Assembly: GCA_016744535.1 (NCBI GenBank)
Contig: JADGEE010000013.1
Location: 1 to 39,393, forward strand
Origin: Campylobacteraceae bacterium
GTDB lineage: Bacteria > Campylobacterota > Campylobacteria > Campylobacterales > BB28
Direction of reading: 5' to 3'
Length of the DNA stretch: 39,393 nt
A model generated the notes under the pieces. It searched no databases, was not told the DNA's origin, and worked only from the letters and a program-made list of their open reading frames with translations. Made by a program: the position numbers and the translations under genes. Positions 1,313-24,984 of this stretch are shown here, in pieces (position 1 is the stretch's first letter; every line of letters begins with the position of its first letter).

Positions 1313-2347
1313 ATGCCAATAAATAGAGTATTAAAAGCGATAGAAGAGATAAAAAAAGGCAATATGGTTATTATGGTTGATGATGAAGATAGAGAAAATG
1401 AGGGAGATTTAGTCTATGCTGGAATTTTTTCAACTCCTGAAAAAGTTAATTTTATGGTTAGTAAAGCAAAAGGTTTAGTTTGCGTTTCTATTTCAAAAGA
1501 GAGTGCTAATAGATTGAATTTAACGCCTATGGTTGCTAAAAATGATGCACAATACGAAACTGCCTTTACAATTTCAGTAGACCATAAAAATTCAACCACA
1601 GGAATTTCAGCTTATGAAAGAGATGAAACAATTAGAGAGTTAGCAAATCCAATGTCAAACTCTAGCGATTTTGTAAAACCTGGTCATATTTTTCCACTTA
1701 TTGCAAAAGATGGCGGAGTTTTAGTTAGAACAGGACATACAGAGGGAAGTTTAGATTTATGTCGTTTAGCTGGGCTTAGTGACTCTGCTGTAATTTGTGA
1801 AGTTATGAAAGAGAACGGTGAAATGGCTAGAAGAGATGATTTAGATAAATTTGCAAAAGAGCATAATTTAGTAACTGTATATATCTCTGATATTGTAGAA
1901 TATAGATTAAAAAATGAATCACTAGTTAAGGAGATAAGCAAAGAAGAGTCACTTTTACTTAATGAAAAAGTTCAAAAAGTTGAATTTATAGACCATTTAG
2001 AACATAAACATTTTGCTTTTATATTTAATAAAGAGAATATTAATAAAACATCTTTTGTAAAATTTCATAATATCGCAAAAGATATTGAACTATTTTTAAA
2101 ACCTAAAAAATTTAACTCTCTACTATCTTCAATTGAATTTTTAAAAGAGAATTCAGGAGTATTGATTTTACTTGATAATAAACTTGAAGATAGCGATAGT
2201 ATTAAAGATTTTGGAATAGGGGCTCAAATTCTTAAAAAACTAGGGATTGAAAATATTAAATTAATTACAGCACACTCTCATAAAGAGTTTGTAGGAATTA
2301 GTGGATTTGGACTTAATGTAGTTGAGGATGTGGAAGTTGAAGGTTAG
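1313..2347 (+). CDS. ribBA: 3,4-dihydroxy-2-butanone 4-phosphate synthase with degenerate GTP cyclohydrolase II domain (RibBA)
   Basis: 344 residues. The N-terminal 200 residues form an intact DHBP synthase, which converts ribulose 5-phosphate to the four-carbon riboflavin precursor. DDEDRENEGDL (about 23-33) is the metal and substrate loop, and GHTEGSLDLCRLAG (about 141-154) carries further active-site residues. The C-terminal 140 residues correspond to GTP cyclohydrolase II only in part: DFGIGAQILKKLG and GFGLNVVE match its end. The three zinc-binding cysteines are absent (no cysteine after residue 200), so the second activity is presumably lost. A separate ribA would be needed elsewhere. 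AAGGGA precedes the ATG. The gene is followed by overlapping ybgC. Confidence 0.92.
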   Translation: MPINRVLKAIEEIKKGNMVIMVDDEDRENEGDLVYAGIFSTPEKVNFMVSKAKGLVCVSISKESANRLNLTPMVAKNDAQYETAFTISVDHKNSTTGISAYERDETIRELANPMSNSSDFVKPGHIFPLIAKDGGVLVRTGHTEGSLDLCRLAGLSDSAVICEVMKENGEMARRDDLDKFAKEHNLVTVYISDIVEYRLKNESLVKEISKEESLLLNEKVQKVEFIDHLEHKHFAFIFNKENINKTSFVKFHNIAKDIELFLKPKKFNSLLSSIEFLKENSGVLILLDNKLEDSDSIKDFGIGAQILKKLGIENIKLITAHSHKEFVGISGFGLNVVEDVEVEG

Positions 2348-2702
2348 AGTCTATTATGAAGATACTGATGTAGGCGGAGTTGTCTATTATGCAAATTATC
2401 TGAAATTTTGTGAAAGGGCTAGGAGTGAAATTTTTTTTAATAAAAGTTTAACTCCTGTTAATAATAAATGTCATTTTGTAGTTAAAGAACTAAAAGCCTC
2501 TTATTTTAAACCTGCTAAATTTGCAGATATTTTAGATGTTAAAACTACACCTTTAGAGATAAGAAAAGCTTCAGTTGTATTACTACAAGAAGTTTTAAAA
2601 GCTAAAGATATTATTTTTGAGATGCAGATAGAGTTAGTATTTGTATGTGGTGAAAAAATTTCAAAAATACCAAAAGAGTTTGAGGGAATATTTAAAAATT
2701 AA
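2328..2702 (+). CDS. ybgC: YbgC-family acyl-CoA thioesterase
   Basis: About 124 residues of hotdog fold. VRVYYEDTDVGGVVYYANY near the N-terminus is the YbgC signature, with the catalytic Asp in YEDTD and the Y-x-N-Y motif. ERARSE follows. The family hydrolyses short- or medium-chain acyl-CoA or acyl-ACP and is often linked to Tol-Pal or phospholipid metabolism. The reading frame overlaps the end of ribBA, implying translational coupling. I place the start at ATG 2328; TTG at 2322 or TTG at 2337 (with GAGG nine bases upstream) are alternatives. It converges on the histidine kinase gene with a 4-base overlap of stop codons. Confidence 0.9.
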   Translation: MWKLKVRVYYEDTDVGGVVYYANYLKFCERARSEIFFNKSLTPVNNKCHFVVKELKASYFKPAKFADILDVKTTPLEIRKASVVLLQEVLKAKDIIFEMQIELVFVCGEKISKIPKEFEGIFKN

Positions 2703-4723
2703 TATAAGGGTAGCTCTATAATAAATCTAGCCCCTTTTTTCTTATTATTAAACTCTATATTTTTAGCAAATAAATTACCATTTAAGTTTTTCTCAACAAT
2801 TACTTTTGACATATAAAGTCCTATTCCCGTTCCTTTGCCCTCATCTTTTGTGGTAAAGTATGGCTCAAATATTTTATTTATATATTTATCTTCAATACCA
2901 CCTGCACTATCTGATATTTCTATGATTATTTTATTATCTATTTTTTTTGTTAAAATCTCTATTGATGCCTTTTTAATATTATGTTTTAATATCTCATCTT
3001 TCGCATTAGATAAAATATTTACTAAGACTTGTGAAAATTCATTTTTAACTCCTAAAATTTTAATATTTTTTGATAAATTAGTTTTAATTTCTATCTCATA
3101 AAATTTAAAACTTGCATTAAAAATATTGAGAGTCTCTTTTATTATTTTATTTAAATCAAAAGTTTCTTGTTTTTTATCACTCTTAAAAAAATTCCTAAAA
3201 TCATCTATTGTATGTGACATCTGTTCAATTATACTTCTTGCCTCTCCATAATAAGAGTCTAATTTTTCTTCACTTAATTTTTTTTCAAAAAACTCTTCAT
3301 AAATTACATATAATAGTAAATTCAGAGTATTAAGAGGTTGTCTCCATTGATGAGCGATATTTCCTATCATCTCTCCCATTGCAACCATTTTTGATTGGCT
3401 AATTAATATCTGTTCTTGTTTTCTTTTCTCTTCAGTTAATTTAATCTGTTTTGAAACATCTTCAATATTAAAGATTGCCCCTTCAAAAAGTTTATCTTTA
3501 TTAAATAGAGGAGCTCCGTGAATAGATAGAAAAACCTTTTCTTCATTTTTTTTACAAACAGCATAACAGATATTATGAATAGCTTTTTTTGCATATTCTA
3601 TTTTATTAAAAGGTAAAATATTCTCTTTAACGCAAGTTTCACAATTTTTAATATCTTCTTTGCAATTACTTAAAATTCCATTAATACTATTTGACATTTT
3701 CTCTTTTTTTAAATCAAAAAAACCTTTTGACATCTTATTTGCAAATATAACTCTTCCATTTAAATTAACCATAACAATCCCAAGAGGACTACTATCCATC
3801 ATAGATGTAATTAAATTTTGTTTTTGCTCTAATATAATATTTACTTTTATAACTTCATTTAATCTCTCTCTTAAATTTTCTTGAAGAGCAAAATTCTCTT
3901 TTTTTAATAATTTTTGATAATCTTCAATATCACTAATATCAGTAAAAGAGACTATATACTCTTTTTCATTTATTGAAGATTTATTATAGTTAATAATAAA
4001 AACTCTATTTATATTTTTATCTACATCATACATTTTCACTTTAGAATCTATACTGATTTCTCTATTTCTAATAATTTTTTTAAGCCATTTTTCATCTTCT
4101 TCATCATAAATAAATCCATCTTCTTCTGTAAATTTTTCACATACACAATTATGCTCTTCTTTAAACGCTTCAAATGAGTTGTATCCTAAAAAATCTAAAA
4201 ATTTTTTATTACAATTAACTGCTTTGTATGAATCTGTAATAACTATTAAATTTGATTGTGAATCTAAAATATCTTGAATATAAGTCTGTTTAATTTTAAG
4301 CTTCTCTTCCATCTCTTTATGTGATTTTTCAAAAACTATATTTTCACCTATTTTATGTATAGTTTCAAATAATTTCTCTTTTTTAAATGGTTTTAAAATA
4401 TATCCATCAACTCCAATATCAATAGATTCAATTAAATACTCTTTATTGTTAAAAGCTGTAATAATTACAATTGGACACTTCTTTATCTTTTTAATCTCTT
4501 TTATCATTTCAAGACCATTAATATCTGGCATTTCAATATCACTTATGACTAAATCAATATCATTAAATTTAAATACTTCAACTCCATCTTTTGCATTATA
4601 AGCTTTAAAAAACTCTTTACAATAGATTCCTATATTTCTTTTTATTATCTCCATATTAAGTTCATCATCTTCAACACATAAAATATTTAAATTTTTTAGA
4701 GTATTTTTTAATTTTGTTTTCAT
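2699..4723 (-). CDS. hybrid sensor histidine kinase: REC-PAS-PAS-HisKA-HATPase
   Basis: 674 residues with no membrane segment, so cytoplasmic. Order: receiver domain (1-125; phospho-acceptor D62, K111); linker coiled coil; PAS 1 (about 150-268); coiled coil; PAS 2 (about 303-425); kinase core with H458 in IAHQWRQPL; N-box NILSNAKDE (569-577); G1 DSAGGIED (605-612); F-box EPYFTTK (620-626); G2 GTGIGLYMSK (631-640). A receiver at the N-terminus of a soluble kinase suggests a phosphorelay input rather than an output. PAS 2 carries a cysteine cluster (C354, C361, C364, C387, C390), possibly for metal or redox sensing. The gene lies downstream of a kinase remnant and a REC protein on the same strand. 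Confidence 0.93.
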   Translation of the reverse strand: MKTKLKNTLKNLNILCVEDDELNMEIIKRNIGIYCKEFFKAYNAKDGVEVFKFNDIDLVISDIEMPDINGLEMIKEIKKIKKCPIVIITAFNNKEYLIESIDIGVDGYILKPFKKEKLFETIHKIGENIVFEKSHKEMEEKLKIKQTYIQDILDSQSNLIVITDSYKAVNCNKKFLDFLGYNSFEAFKEEHNCVCEKFTEEDGFIYDEEDEKWLKKIIRNREISIDSKVKMYDVDKNINRVFIINYNKSSINEKEYIVSFTDISDIEDYQKLLKKENFALQENLRERLNEVIKVNIILEQKQNLITSMMDSSPLGIVMVNLNGRVIFANKMSKGFFDLKKEKMSNSINGILSNCKEDIKNCETCVKENILPFNKIEYAKKAIHNICYAVCKKNEEKVFLSIHGAPLFNKDKLFEGAIFNIEDVSKQIKLTEEKRKQEQILISQSKMVAMGEMIGNIAHQWRQPLNTLNLLLYVIYEEFFEKKLSEEKLDSYYGEARSIIEQMSHTIDDFRNFFKSDKKQETFDLNKIIKETLNIFNASFKFYEIEIKTNLSKNIKILGVKNEFSQVLVNILSNAKDEILKHNIKKASIEILTKKIDNKIIIEISDSAGGIEDKYINKIFEPYFTTKDEGKGTGIGLYMSKVIVEKNLNGNLFAKNIEFNNKKKGARFIIELPLY

Positions 4724-6273: not shown

Positions 6274-7236
6274 TTACTTTATTCCAGCTTCTACTAAATC
6301 GTGAATATGTAAAATTCCTTTTACTTTTTGTTTCTCATCTGTTACAACTAATAATTGAATCTTAAAATCTTCTATAATTTTTATAGCGTCACTTGCTAAA
6401 ATATGTCTATTATTAACTGTTTTTGGCTCTAGTGTTGCATACTCTATCGCTTTTTTATCAAGCGAAAAATTCTCTTTTAAAATTGCTCTTCTTAAATCTC
6501 CATCACTCAAAACTGCGATTAATTTTTCATTTTCATCTAAAACCAAAGCACAACCAACTCGCCCCTCTGTTATTACTAAAATAGCATCTTTAAGTAGTGC
6601 ATCTTTTTTGATAATTGGTAAATTATCCCTTCTCATTAAATCATCAACTTTTATAAATAACTTTTTTCCAAGTGAACCACCTGGGTGAAATGATGCAAAA
6701 TCTTCTTTTGCAAAATCTCTCTTTTTCATCAAACATACAGCAAGCCCGTCACCTAAAGCTAGAGTTAAAGTAGTAGAACTCGTAGGTGCAACATTTAATG
6801 GACACGCCTCTTTTTGAATATTTGTAGAGATAAAAACATCTGCATATTTTGATAAAGTTGAGTTTTTTTCACCTGAAATTGCAATTAAATTAATATCAAA
6901 TCTTTTAATATGTGGAAGTATTTTTATTAACTCTTCACTCTCCCCTGAATAACTAATTGCAAGTAAAACATCATCTTTTCCTATCATTCCTAAATCACCG
7001 TGCATAGCCTCTGTTGGATGAAGAAAAAAACTACTCGTTCCAGTTGATGCAAAAGTAGCAGCTATTTTTGCCCCAATTAAACCAGACTTTCCAACTCCTG
7101 TAATAATCAATTTACCTTTTGTATTAAATATTAATTCAACTGCTCTCTCTATCTCTTCACTTATGTTTTCACTAGCTCTTATTAACTCATTAGCTTCAGT
7201 AATTAAAACCTCTTTTGCAATTTCTATAAAATTCAT
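6274..7236 (-). CDS. kdsD: D-arabinose 5-phosphate isomerase (KdsD/KpsF)
   Basis: 320 residues, the family's usual length. The SIS domain covers about 1-200, with GVGKSGLIG and SYSGESEE as sugar-phosphate binding loops and HPTEAMHGDLGM as the active-site segment. Two CBS repeats follow (about 205-262 and 270-320). The enzyme converts ribulose 5-phosphate to arabinose 5-phosphate, the first step of Kdo synthesis for lipopolysaccharide. Start ATG 7236 is preceded by AAAGAGG. The gene stands 41 bases after the small PD-(D/E)XK-like gene on the same strand, so it may be read through from the mraY operon. Confidence 0.94.
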   Translation of the reverse strand: MNFIEIAKEVLITEANELIRASENISEEIERAVELIFNTKGKLIITGVGKSGLIGAKIAATFASTGTSSFFLHPTEAMHGDLGMIGKDDVLLAISYSGESEELIKILPHIKRFDINLIAISGEKNSTLSKYADVFISTNIQKEACPLNVAPTSSTTLTLALGDGLAVCLMKKRDFAKEDFASFHPGGSLGKKLFIKVDDLMRRDNLPIIKKDALLKDAILVITEGRVGCALVLDENEKLIAVLSDGDLRRAILKENFSLDKKAIEYATLEPKTVNNRHILASDAIKIIEDFKIQLLVVTDEKQKVKGILHIHDLVEAGIK

Positions 7237-7277: not shown

Positions 7278-7811
7278 TTATCCACAATTTAATATCCAAT
7301 TATTTAAAAACTTATCACACTCCATTGATAGAGTATTTTTAAATATAAATTTATATCTTGTTAATTTATTATTTAAATGTCTATGTATTCTATCTCTTGA
7401 GTTTTGTGCTTTATATACAAATAAAAAACTCTTTTTTATAGATTCAAAATTATCTAAAGATATATTTTTTTCTTTTTTTAAATATGAACTAAGTAATAAA
7501 ATAGAATCTGTAGCTTTTAAGTAAATACTATTTTGTTTCTCTTTATACCATTTTGATAAATCTTCTATCTCTTCGAGGTTTTTAAACTCTATAAAAACTA
7601 TATGTTTTTGTTCTTGATTGAAATATAGCATATCATAAGAAGAGAGAGTGTCACGTCTATTTGTTAAATTATTTTTACAATTTAATTTAAATTCATCAAA
7701 ATCTATAAATTTTTTATCTTCAATATTTGGACAACAATTGTCGCTTACTTTATCTAAAGTTTTTAAAAAATCAGGATTTGATAAAAATATACTTTCTATG
7801 TATTTTACCAT
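7278..7811 (-). CDS. small PD-(D/E)XK nuclease-like protein, partner of the adjacent ATPase
   Basis: 177 residues, no recognised family. A nuclease-like core is visible: D60 in SSYDMLYF, then E75 and K77 in IVFIEFKN. This is the spacing and hydrophobic context of a PD-(D/E)XK site. An amphipathic helix (LKATDSILLLSSYL) follows. A cysteine pair lies at 26-27. The start codon overlaps the end of the ATPase gene by 7 bases (ATGGTAA), so the two are translationally coupled and probably act as a complex. Such ATPase plus small nuclease pairs are frequent in anti-phage defence. The nuclease call is inference from motif geometry only. Confidence 0.6.
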   Translation of the reverse strand: MVKYIESIFLSNPDFLKTLDKVSDNCCPNIEDKKFIDFDEFKLNCKNNLTNRRDTLSSYDMLYFNQEQKHIVFIEFKNLEEIEDLSKWYKEKQNSIYLKATDSILLLSSYLKKEKNISLDNFESIKKSFLFVYKAQNSRDRIHRHLNNKLTRYKFIFKNTLSMECDKFLNNWILNCG

Positions 7812-8833
7812 TTGAAATTATCTATCTCTTCTTTTTCAAGTCTATCAAATGGTTCTGATAACTTTTCAAATATAGGTTCTAAATTGTTTGTTATATCTTG
7901 TATAGTTGAACTTATCCCATCTTCACTCTCTGCTAAATAAAAATTTGTTTTATCTGCTAAATTCTCTTTATCACTATAAACTTTTAAAGCTTCAACAATA
8001 TAAGGACTATGTGAAGTTACTAAAACTATAACACCACTCTTTACTAATTCGACTATTATTTCAGTATATTTTAATTGCCATTTTGGGTGCAAATGAACTT
8101 CAGGCTCATCAAGAATTAAAATAGAGTTCTCTTTTATAGTCTCATTTGCTATAAGTATTTGAAGCAATCCAAACATTTTAATACCATTTGAAGTGTTATG
8201 TATATTTACCTCTTTATCTAAATTATCTTTTTTAAAATAAAAATCATCTCTATCACCATCATAATAGACTTCACCGTGTATTATTTTAGATATTTTTTTA
8301 TAAATTTCATTCTCTTTATTTGTAATAATATCTTGTGAGAGTCTAAGTATTAAATCACTTACTTGATGAGGAATAAAAAATCTTAAATTATTTTGAGACA
8401 TTAAAAATTCTGCATTTTTAATATATTTTGATTTTGTTAAAATGTCTGGGGTGTCAATAAAAAGAATATTTTTTTGATGTATTTTTTCAATATATTCAGT
8501 TAAATGAATTTTTTTATTTACTTCTCTATTTAATGATTGTTTACTATATTCAATTATTACTTTATGGTATTCATCTTGTAAAGATATACAAGCTTCTAAT
8601 TTTTCATCTCTTATAACATCTTTAGTATTAAAAATAAAAGCATTATATTCATCATCATTTATATTGAAGTTATCTTTTTTATCTATTATTTTATTTTTTA
8701 AAACTAATAAATAATATAACATTTTTCCTATAGTCGTTTTTCCACTATCATTCCAACCTGCAATAATAGTCAAACCATCTAATTTAATTTCAGCTTTGCT
8801 AATCATTCCAATATTTTCAAGTTTTAAAAGCAT
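7805..8833 (-). CDS. AAA ATPase, SMC/OLD-like (AAA_21 type)
   Basis: 342 residues. Walker A GWNDSGKT (26-33) lies in the ABC/SMC-like N-terminal strand context (LKLENIGMISKAEIKLDGLT). A signature-like NTSNGIKMFG is at 213-222, Walker B ILILDEPEVHLHP at 238-250, and the switch histidine in TSHSPYIVEA at about 275. This is the architecture of the ATPases of OLD, Septu, PARIS and related defence systems, without a fused TOPRIM. It starts 20 bases after the mraY stop with a TAGGA ribosome site, so it is co-transcribed with mraY. It overlaps the nuclease-like gene by 7 bases. Confidence 0.85.
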   Translation of the reverse strand: MLLKLENIGMISKAEIKLDGLTIIAGWNDSGKTTIGKMLYYLLVLKNKIIDKKDNFNINDDEYNAFIFNTKDVIRDEKLEACISLQDEYHKVIIEYSKQSLNREVNKKIHLTEYIEKIHQKNILFIDTPDILTKSKYIKNAEFLMSQNNLRFFIPHQVSDLILRLSQDIITNKENEIYKKISKIIHGEVYYDGDRDDFYFKKDNLDKEVNIHNTSNGIKMFGLLQILIANETIKENSILILDEPEVHLHPKWQLKYTEIIVELVKSGVIVLVTSHSPYIVEALKVYSDKENLADKTNFYLAESEDGISSTIQDITNNLEPIFEKLSEPFDRLEKEEIDNFKW

Positions 8834-8853
8834 AAAAAATCCTATTTATTTGA

Positions 8854-9915
8854 CTATCTAATTTTAAGCGTAATTAACGCTAAAATATTTGACATAAGTG
8901 CAATTATCCAAAATCTTATAATTACTTTATTTTCAGCCCACCCTTTCATCTCAAAATGATGATGAATTGGTGCCATTAAAAATATTCTTTTTTTTCTTGT
9001 TTTATAACTTATAACTTGAAGTATTACCGAAAATGTTTCTATCACAAATATAAATCCGATTAGTAGAAGTAAAATTTCACTCTTGCCTAAAATTGCCATA
9101 TATCCGATATATGCACCTAGTGTTAGACTCCCACTGTCTCCCATAAAAACTTCAGCAGGGTGGCAATTATACCAAAGAAAACCCATTAAACTCCCAGCTA
9201 GTGTTGCTCCTATTATCGCGACTTCTCCAACTTCTGTAATATAAGGAAGTAGTAAATATTTACTAATTACAATATTTCCAGTAACATAAACAAGTGTTGA
9301 GAGCGAAGCTAATGCAAAAATCGAAGGAACTGTGGCTAAACCATCTAATCCATCGGTTAAATTTACAGCATTACTTGAAGCAACCATTACCAATGCCCAA
9401 AAAACCACGGAGAAGAGTCCAAAATCAATAATAGGATATTTATAAAATGGTATATAAAAATTTGTGTCAAAATTTGCAAAGATTAAAACACTACCAACTA
9501 TAAGACCGAATATAAATTGTAAAATAAGCTTTGTTTTAGGAGATAATCCAAACTCATTCTTACCATTTAAAATTTTGCCTAAATCATCAATTAATCCAAT
9601 AGCCCCAAAAAAAGTGATTGTTAAAATCCCTCCAATTATATAATAGTTATTAAGCTTTACAGTCAATATGGTAGCTATTAAAGTTGAAACTAAAAATACA
9701 ATTCCACCCATTGTTGGAGTATTTGATTTTGACTTATGTGAATCTGGAGCGAGTGAGTAAATTGGTTGATTTGCTTTTCTTTTTTTTGCCCAAGTAATAA
9801 ACTTTGGCATTAAAAAAATTGTTAAAAGAAAAGCTATTGTAAAGCCGATTCCTGCTCTAATTGTAATATATTGAAAAATATTTATATCTAAGTGTCTATA
9901 AATCCAGTAAAACAT
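8854..9915 (-). CDS. mraY: phospho-N-acetylmuramoyl-pentapeptide transferase (MraY)
   Basis: 353 residues with about ten membrane segments. It makes lipid I from UDP-MurNAc-pentapeptide and undecaprenyl phosphate. Signature motifs: [29 protein letters not shown], and the cytosolic loop APIHHHFE before the last helices. It is divergent from gpmI. In many related genomes murD follows mraY directly. Here an ATPase plus nuclease-like pair occupies that position, and no murD is visible in the window. Confidence 0.97.
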
Positions 9916-18406: not shown

Positions 18407-19087
18407 TTAATTAAATTGATGTAGAAAATTTTTTAAGTCGTTTAAGTTTTCGTGATTAAAATCATAAATATCTTTATAAAGTGAAGCTCTATTATTACAT
18501 TTCTTACCAGCTTGTTTTTTATCTTTAGAGTTACAATTATCATATCTTTGATATATCTGTATCCAAAATTTATCAAAATCTTTTGGTTTTATATTTTTAT
18601 TTTTCTCTTTTAAACACTCTTGCCAACTATCCAAACAATCGGCATAAGTAGAATCTTTACAAGCTAACTCTTTAAGTAGTGTTTCAAGTTCTCCAACACC
18701 TTCTAAATTTGTAATATAACAATTAAATTTTACATTATATTTTTTATCTTTTACAAATTCATTTATATTTTTTAAATCACTCTCTAAATCAAATAATTCT
18801 TTTAAAACTCTATTTATTAATTCTATTCTTTTATTAATTCCAACACTATCAGCGTCTAAAATTATTCCTACTTTTTCAACATCTCTTTTTTCAAGTTCAA
18901 TATCATTTTTTAATTCATCCAATTTATTAAATAATTGTTTTTCACTAAATCCACCTTCACATTTATCATCATCTACAAGACATTGAGTTTCTATTTTTAA
19001 ATCTACATTATTATTTAAATGAGCTAATAAAGCTTTTATAAAATATTTATCATTATCACTTTCAACTATTAAAATATTTTTACTCAC
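18407..19087 (-). CDS. DUF3226/TOPRIM-like protein, partner of the adjacent ATPase
   Basis: About 226 residues from GTG 19087, which has GGGAG suitably placed upstream. A GTG at 19102 would add five residues but has no ribosome site. TOPRIM hallmarks: E9 in ILIVESDND at the N-terminus and the D78-x-D80 pair in VGIILDADS, as in OLD, AriB and DUF3226 nucleases. The C-terminal half is rich in C and K and shows no further motif. The start overlaps the ATPase stop by 8 bases (GTGAGTAA). An ATPase plus stand-alone TOPRIM protein is the arrangement of PARIS (AriA/AriB); this is a DUF3226 variant. A role in defence is inference. Confidence 0.75.
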   Translation of the reverse strand: MSKNILIVESDNDKYFIKALLAHLNNNVDLKIETQCLVDDDKCEGGFSEKQLFNKLDELKNDIELEKRDVEKVGIILDADSVGINKRIELINRVLKELFDLESDLKNINEFVKDKKYNVKFNCYITNLEGVGELETLLKELACKDSTYADCLDSWQECLKEKNKNIKPKDFDKFWIQIYQRYDNCNSKDKKQAGKKCNNRASLYKDIYDFNHENLNDLKNFLHQFN

Positions 19088-20078
19088 CTCTAAATCTCCC
19101 ACCGTGACTAAGTGAATACTCTAATCGCTCTTTATCTCTTTTTGAAACTCTTATTTTTCCACTCTTAATACTTCTAGCAAACTCAAAATAAGCCGTGTTT
19201 TCTTCATTTAATTCAAATTGCACTCTATTAAAAGCTTCGATTGTTTCTCGTGAATGAGTTGTTGCAAAAACTTGACAATTAGCCTCTTTTGAAGTTTTAA
19301 AGATTATTTCCCAAAGTTTAGGTAGTTTTGTGTAGTGTATTCCATTTTCAATTTCATCAATAAATAGAGTTCCATCTTTACTAGCCCAAATTGAACATAT
19401 TATTGTTATAAATCGTTTTAAGCCATCGCCCAATTCACTTAAATCTTGCCAATCATTCAGAGGTGTTAAAAAGCATTTTGGAGTGTTATCTATAATATCA
19501 AACTCTTCTATTCTACTATCAAAGTAATTAATCAATTCATTTAAAAATGGCTTTTTTCTATTCAGTTGAATAACAGAATAATAAATAGGTAGTCTATGTT
19601 TTAAAAATCCATTTGTATAAATAAAATTTGAAACTTCTTTTGTCATAACTGCACTTAAAATATTATTATTTTCAACTTTATAACTATTATTATTTAATTT
19701 TAAGATAGTTATTTTTTTTAAATTTATATTTTCAGCTTTAAAGATGGATATAAATTTATTTGATTCAATATTAAAATTTTTAAAATAATTATTAAAATCT
19801 ATTTTTTCAGTATATCTATTAAAAAATTTTTCTTTTACTTCTTTAATATAATTGAAAATATCTCTTTGCATAATAGTATGTTCTAATGCTTTTGCAAATT
19901 GTTCTAATTCTTGCGAATGCCAATTTAAAAAAACAGCCTCCATAAACGCAGTTTTACCTACATTATTTTCACCACCAATTAAATTAACTCTTTCAAGTCC
20001 TTCAACTTTTAGCTTATCAAAACATTTGAAATTTTCTATCTCTATCCACTCTAAATGCTCATCTTTTTTATAACTCAT
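19080..20078 (-). CDS. AAA ATPase (AAA_15/AAA_21, PARIS/OLD-like)
   Basis: 332 residues. N-terminal strand WIEIENFKCFDKLKVEGL, then Walker A GGENNVGKT (35-43). Signature-like LGDGLKRF is at about 216-223, Walker B GTLFIDEIENGIHYT at 236-250, and the switch histidine in ATTHSRETIEAF at 275. These are the marks of the defence-associated ATPases that act with TOPRIM effectors. The start overlaps the asnB stop by four bases (ATGA), so it is translated with the glycan cluster. Unrelated in detail to the ATPase at 7805-8833, though of the same superfamily. Confidence 0.85.
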   Translation of the reverse strand: MSYKKDEHLEWIEIENFKCFDKLKVEGLERVNLIGGENNVGKTAFMEAVFLNWHSQELEQFAKALEHTIMQRDIFNYIKEVKEKFFNRYTEKIDFNNYFKNFNIESNKFISIFKAENINLKKITILKLNNNSYKVENNNILSAVMTKEVSNFIYTNGFLKHRLPIYYSVIQLNRKKPFLNELINYFDSRIEEFDIIDNTPKCFLTPLNDWQDLSELGDGLKRFITIICSIWASKDGTLFIDEIENGIHYTKLPKLWEIIFKTSKEANCQVFATTHSRETIEAFNRVQFELNEENTAYFEFARSIKSGKIRVSKRDKERLEYSLSHGGRFRGE

Positions 20079-24546: not shown

Positions 24547-24984
24547 CTAATCATATAATTCTTTATTAAAATAATCTAAGAATAGTATAGTTTTATGACT
24601 AAAACTATTATCCTTTTTTGCAGACTCTATCGCTTCACTTAAATCAATATTTTTATATTTTACAACTTTTAATAATGCTACTCTAAACTCTGGAATATAA
24701 CTATTTATAACTTCCCAAACTATATTTTCATCAATTCCAAAATATCCGTGATTTATTTGATTTCTAAAATCCACAATTATTCTATACTCTTTATTTAATG
24801 TATTTAATTTTAAAAGATTATTTGTAGCTTCTCCTATTATCTCTAATTCTCTTATTGTAGCATCCCATTCAAGGTCACTATGAAGAAGTTCCTTACCTGT
24901 ATCAAATTTTTGTGAGTATCTAATTATCTTATCAATTGCTATAAATATATCAACTATATAAAATTCTATCTCTCTTTTAGACAT
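24547..24984 (-). CDS. hepT: HepT toxin of a type VII toxin-antitoxin pair
   Basis: 145 residues of the HEPN superfamily. The catalytic R-x4-H-x-Y motif is seen in DFRNQINHGYFG (R-NQIN-H-G-Y). HepT is a ribonuclease neutralised when MntA adenylylates the tyrosine of this motif. Start ATG 24984 overlaps the MntA stop by 8 bases (ATGTCTAA), the usual coupled arrangement. At 145 residues it is of normal length, with no sign of damage. Confidence 0.85.
   Translation of the reverse strand: MSKREIEFYIVDIFIAIDKIIRYSQKFDTGKELLHSDLEWDATIRELEIIGEATNNLLKLNTLNKEYRIIVDFRNQINHGYFGIDENIVWEVINSYIPEFRVALLKVVKYKNIDLSEAIESAKKDNSFSHKTILFLDYFNKELYD

Follow-up and report, generated by a model that had tools for sequence, protein, structure and literature searches.

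A mosaic ATPase and a putative nuclease form a candidate two-gene immune system within core operons of Campylobacterota

The window analysed here, a 39,393-nucleotide stretch of DNA from a Campylobacteraceae bacterium, holds an ATPase gene and a small companion gene that follow mraY where relatives usually carry murD. Both lie on the reverse strand: gene A (7805..8833) encodes an ABC/SMC-type ATPase of 342 aa and gene B (7278..7811) a putative PD-(D/E)XK nuclease of 177 aa. The upstream operon partner of A is mraY (8854..9915, reverse strand; Glycos_transf_4 and MraY_sig1), with gpmI divergent from mraY on that side of the pair. Downstream of B, where murD would be expected, lies the gene for a SIS-CBS sugar-phosphate isomerase (KdsD/KpsF-like; 6274..7236, reverse strand; SIS and CBS domains). 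The original prediction described an insertion into an essential operon, and the pair indeed adjoins mraY on the same strand. The predicted layout also agrees with the ORF coordinates, with A 20 bases after mraY (gap 8834-8853) and an A/B overlap of 7 bases (7805..7811, reverse strand; AAATGGTAA, read as K-W-stop in A and M-V in B). An overlap of 7 bases is present in 14 pairs of the family and one of 8 bases in 39 (together 53 of ~80). As homologous A/B pairs from dozens of genomes share the same overlap, the A and B of the window are not a chance ORF pair, and the arrangement is likely to couple translation of the two genes. The murD gene was said to hold the site behind mraY in many relatives, and in an order-wide sample of 30 mraY loci it was found directly downstream in 24, usually no more than 25 bases from mraY (tblastn). 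A occupies this position in three loci (the window genome, its congener G001 and G409), and neither gene in the other three. The murD of the window genome is located on a separate contig (L201; G000 contig C32), beside IS200/IS605-like tnpA/tnpB.

The assignment of A as an SMC/OLD-type ATPase was upheld by both sequence and fold comparison. A resembles AAA_21/AAA_15/SMC_N of Pfam (AAA_21 8e-18), and Foldseek places Septu PtuA and Rad50 as the best PDB matches of its AF2 model (pLDDT 89.1; E 2e-13). Sequence profiles of the PDB likewise rank PtuA first (5e-11), followed by AriA and OLD. The fold match to PtuA corresponds to 12-13% identity, and the PADLOC PtuA profile yields 51 bits, lower than that of HEC-02A discussed below. 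The head of A (residues 1-34; 8732..8833, reverse strand) carries Walker A (GWNDSGKT), is conserved and follows the host lineage. It is succeeded by a hypervariable middle (MID, residues 35-181; 8291..8731, reverse strand), our proposed sensor, which spans most of the Walker-A helix, a beta arm and a helical part. A signature region with near-invariant columns (residues 182-241, N213...G217-K219; 8111..8290, reverse strand) leads to Walker B (DEPEVHLHPKWQ, 242-253), the H-loop SHSP and the C-part, our proposed effector dock (7808..8110, reverse strand).

B had been described as a 177-residue PD-(D/E)XK-type protein with D60, E75 and K77. All three residues are present (codons 7632..7634, 7587..7589 and 7581..7583, reverse strand; ORF and homologue alignment), and all 72 B homologues, a set gathered by position beside A and not by motif, share an unchanged D39, D60, E75, K77 and K99. 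A structure prediction, suggested at the outset, was made with AF2 from 32 sequences (pLDDT 90.9, pTM 0.87) and has a nuclease-like topology that fits a PD-(D/E)XK core. The top Foldseek matches in the PDB are mostly PD-(D/E)XK nucleases, among them Shedu, the cap-snatching nucleases of bunyaviruses, MunI and HamA, though these matches are weak (best E 0.019, all >0.001) and have unrelated proteins mixed in. Taken with the invariant residues, the model makes a nuclease fold likely for B. As originally claimed, B falls in no known family, searches of Pfam, NCBIfam and PADLOC yielding nothing above cut-off; neither an HNH profile nor a Toprim/DUF4435 (AriB-type) match was obtained for B and its homologues, and a single homologue displays a sub-threshold NERD match. 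A Cas_Cmr5 Pfam match to B was disregarded (E 0.26), and low-scoring B matches (L006, L026, L029 and L032) correspond to unrelated proteins, mostly coiled coils. In three genomes B is damaged next to an intact A, having lost its catalytic core in-frame (G316), persisting as a similar remnant (G016) or being frameshifted (G209), as would be expected if B is costly.

Identity was determined per segment (head, middle, signature, post-Walker-B part and B) over 72 non-redundant A/B pairs. Median identities are 79% for the head, 23% for the middle, 40% for the signature region, 49% for the post-Walker-B part and 25% for B. The Mantel correlation with B reaches 0.74 for the post-Walker-B part, 0.38 for both signature and head and 0.11 for the middle (null sd 0.05-0.08); the overlap with the start of B limits how the final residues of A can vary, but the C-part, at ~89 residues, is far longer than this overlap. 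Where B is at least 70% identical, the middle is only 17-36% identical in 22 of 33 comparisons, near the family median, i.e. pairs with B 70-96% identical frequently carry background-level middles. Profiles of DNA identity place the breakpoints close to Walker A and ahead of Walker B. Between G654 and G653, DNA identity is 81% upstream, 95% in the head, 47% in the middle, 86% in the C-part and 94% in B (middle vs rest, Fisher 4e-72). The reverse case is seen for G601 and G555 (middle 91%, C-part 63%, B 45%), which led us to reject the idea that the middle had diverged rapidly without exchange. Furthermore, G303 (pair between mraY and murD) and G178 (pair before glyQ) share 81-82% identity over C-part and B, while their flanks are unrelated and their middles at background. 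At least six middle-region clusters each combine with two or more B classes. For 39 glyQ-site pairs, the head correlates with host GlyQ (Mantel rho 0.65) and the middle does not appreciably (0.14, p 0.10). Swapped middles retain detectable homology in nearly all pairs (z 5-23; one z 2.0), hence they represent divergent alleles of a single domain rather than unrelated sequence. Read from these alignments, A is a mosaic in which the middle is exchanged independently of B and the C-part travels with B. Such swapping of the middle is expected of a mix-and-match immune receptor.

A profile search of an even sample of 399 genomes of the order recovered 40 copies of A in 35 genomes (~9%), applying a cut-off of >=246 bits, with the next ATPases at 143 bits. 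Within the family of G178, A is present in 42 of 175 genomes. Among the named relatives are those in Sulfurovum, Sulfuricurvum, Sulfurimonas, Sulfurospirillum and Arcobacteraceae, as well as in the gammaproteobacterium Candidatus Halobeggiatoa. Flanking genes were assigned by ORFs and tblastn against reference neighbours; GlyQ, MurD, MraY, PurE, glutaredoxin, GuaA, SIS-CBS and SspA-like GST were checked with Pfam, and other names stem from reading the sequences. The pair lies directly before glyQ in 17 of the 35 genomes (or 19, if two cases interrupted by contig ends are included), across several families. In five it lies in the mraY-murD interval or, as in the window, behind mraY. Other sites are hemC/ubiD, nuoC/nuoD, rsmG/guaA, rho/murI-murD and upstream of lepA, with petC/sspA in Halobeggiatoa. 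At core sites A-B is co-directional with the host operon, and in many cases it overlaps the start codon of the following gene (ATGCTAA at the junction of B and glyQ). A further 14 loci fall outside the classified core sites, some in polysaccharide loci and one beside a transposase (G400). In two Sulfurimonas/Helicobacteraceae MAGs the pair is divergent from nifEN-type genes (L122, 3968-5537; L123, 3971-5543), among the few cases out of line with a core operon.

Among 30 glyQ loci of the G178 family, 16 hold A-B, 10 are empty (glyQ there follows Grx or PurE directly), three hold another ATPase pair and one is at a contig edge. Empty sites are intact both at glyQ and at mraY-murD. A-B stands in tandem with a further A-B in G650 and G570, and adjoins a second pair type in G401 (L093, 6031-7601). 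The occurrence of A-B, empty sites, tandems and a second ATPase/small-protein pair at glyQ marks this site as a small hotspot. The second pair seen there combines an ATPase with a small D..ExK-like protein (L145, 980-1489; L155, 941-1489; L156, 944-1489). In G647, A is followed by a 137-aa ORF unrelated to B (L185, 2163-2576), which perhaps encodes an alternative partner or marks replacement of the effector.

Patchiness, horizontal movement and sharing of a hotspot with similar pairs are thus all observed for A-B. The survey of gene neighbours that had been proposed for defence-island links gave a divided answer: homologues lie mostly in core-gene contexts, with no classical defence island, but empty sites, tandems and a second pair are found there. 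The core-site hotspot, its empty sites, tandems and second pair, the broken effectors and the mosaic exchange point to defence rather than housekeeping. Hence, we infer, with a probability of about two in three, that A and B constitute a two-gene immune (abortive-infection-like) system with an exchangeable sensor and a nuclease effector; an anti-phage function is plausible from the sequence evidence. Against an immune role stand the core-gene flanks in place of a classical defence island, and the searches of phage, plasmid and IMG/VR collections, in which neither A nor B was found. Single-protein scans of genome contigs and viral contigs likewise returned no match, and an alignment search with B classes matched genome contigs and no viral contigs.

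In the proposed mechanism, A would keep B inactive, the C-terminal part docking and restraining it, and would release or activate B upon an infection cue, by analogy with Septu and PARIS. The middle of A would sense a phage- or plasmid-derived trigger, the ATPase would change state, and B would cut nucleic acid, so that infection is stopped. A sensor role for the middle and a dock role for the C-part are suggested by the exchange pattern. Placement in an essential operon could keep the pair steadily expressed with no need for its own promoter, and homologous recombination in the conserved flanks or Walker regions could move whole pairs or single modules. We tentatively extend this, at somewhat less than even odds, to a combinatorial immune receptor: a variable sensor cassette of the ATPase would be recombined between a fixed head and a docking end, shuffling sensors and nuclease effectors independently of each other, with essential operons serving as expression platform and recombination anchor, in Campylobacterota and at least one gammaproteobacterium.

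Systems of this kind are known; the A-B variant was not found described in the literature searched. Septu (PtuA-PtuB) and the retron Ec78 PtuAB likewise unite an SMC/ABC-type ATPase with a small nuclease, and PtuA is nearest to A by fold. However, PtuB is an HNH protein whereas B has PD-(D/E)XK residues, and A, at 342 aa, is smaller; no retron or ncRNA was noted in passing next to the pair. PARIS (AriA-AriB) and AbiL/PDC-M38 also pair an AAA_21/AAA_15 ATPase with a small effector. AriB of PARIS is of the Toprim type, and the AbiL partner is a DUF3226 protein, in contrast to the PD-(D/E)XK residues of the window B. In Lamassu, the SMC-like ATPase LmuB is accompanied by varied LmuA effectors, and a docking domain has been proposed (PMC10586767). 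There it is the effector activity that varies, whereas in A-B the kind of effector seems constant and it is the middle of the ATPase that is exchanged. With respect to location, the cDHS1/2 loci of Pseudomonas aeruginosa hold immune systems flanked by fixed core genes, in the absence of any single mobile element (PMC10250203); A-B differs as a compact 1.5-kb pair within one operon, co-directional, overlapping the next gene and spread over many genera.

It could be argued that A-B is plain HEC-02, a PADLOC candidate comprising an ATPase and a ~170-aa protein. HEC-02A is the best PADLOC profile for A (113 bits, 4.7e-33), gene order, sizes and A/B overlap are the same, and the small HEC-02 protein also has a D..ExK motif (FLEAKSS). 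However, genuine HEC-02A members score 432-508 bits, and by profile the two small proteins are unrelated: the HEC-02B profile gives 158 bits for a true member, 14 bits (E 0.008) for the window B and nothing for 10 other B homologues. We consider the window match to be due to chance, as it is not present in those 10 homologues. True HEC-02 with the same architecture is found in G110 and G415, at loci separate from the A-B that these genomes also hold. Identity with HEC-02 is therefore improbable, and A-B is best read, from sequence, as a sister of HEC-02. Antiviral activity of HEC-02 was not found confirmed in the literature searched. In G415 (L135, 491-3276), a reverse-transcriptase-like ORF (2266-3276) follows HEC-02 and, by reading of the sequence, is possibly another defence gene.

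A selfish addiction module, with B as toxin and A as ATPase antitoxin, free of phage sensing and retained by killing on loss or by its seat in an essential operon, appears unlikely. It is in keeping with the Pfam description of AAA_21 as 'putative AbiEii toxin, Type IV TA' and with the genomes in which B is broken or deleted beside an intact A, but an independently exchanged variable middle and a conserved dock would be pointless for a pure antitoxin; moreover, most relatives lack the pair, and plasmid or phage carriage was not found in the collections searched. The position within core operons, co-directional and with tight overlaps such as ATGCTAA, might instead indicate a housekeeping role linked to the neighbouring genes, whether of cell-wall operons, of tRNA-synthetase operons or in DNA repair. 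We regard this as very improbable, given that ~9% of genomes of the order have the pair, at several unrelated core sites whose flanks are cleanly joined elsewhere, and that its mosaic exchange is fast. Just as improbable is a homing-type element, in which B would cut empty sites for the pair to be copied in. While this would explain the precise recurrent positions before glyQ and at mraY-murD and the clean empty sites, it does not sit well with the many unrelated sites, the insertion between genes with start/stop overlaps, the strong coupling of B to part of the ATPase, or a B about as divergent (median identity 25%) as the middle, unlike a homing enzyme tied to one target.

If A-B is indeed an immune system, its habits bear on how such systems are found. 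Defence discovery relies on defence islands and mobile elements, and a family hidden in housekeeping operons would escape it. The natural recombinants split the ATPase into a region changing without the nuclease and one changing with it, and these chimeras of A offer ready material to test trigger sensing versus effector control in SMC/OLD-type immune ATPases. The same division of roles is at issue in Septu, PARIS and systems related to them. A-B is more notable than first described, owing to its mosaic ATPase and its habit of residing in core operons; neither the exchange of modules in A nor the relation to HEC-02 was part of the original prediction.

The window contains a further ATPase/effector pair (18407-20078, reverse strand) with a 23-base overlap, behind an asparagine-synthase-like gene. 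Its ATPase matches AAA_21, AbiLi (1e-50) and PDC-M38A (9e-47) and its partner DUF3226 and PDC-M38B (1.5e-11), so an AbiL/PDC-M38 system is likely on these profile scores. Together with A-B, this places two ATPase/effector pairs inside biosynthetic operons of the window genome. A HepT-like ribonuclease gene (24547-24984, reverse strand; Pfam 1.4e-15) is possibly part of a HepT/MntA toxin-antitoxin.
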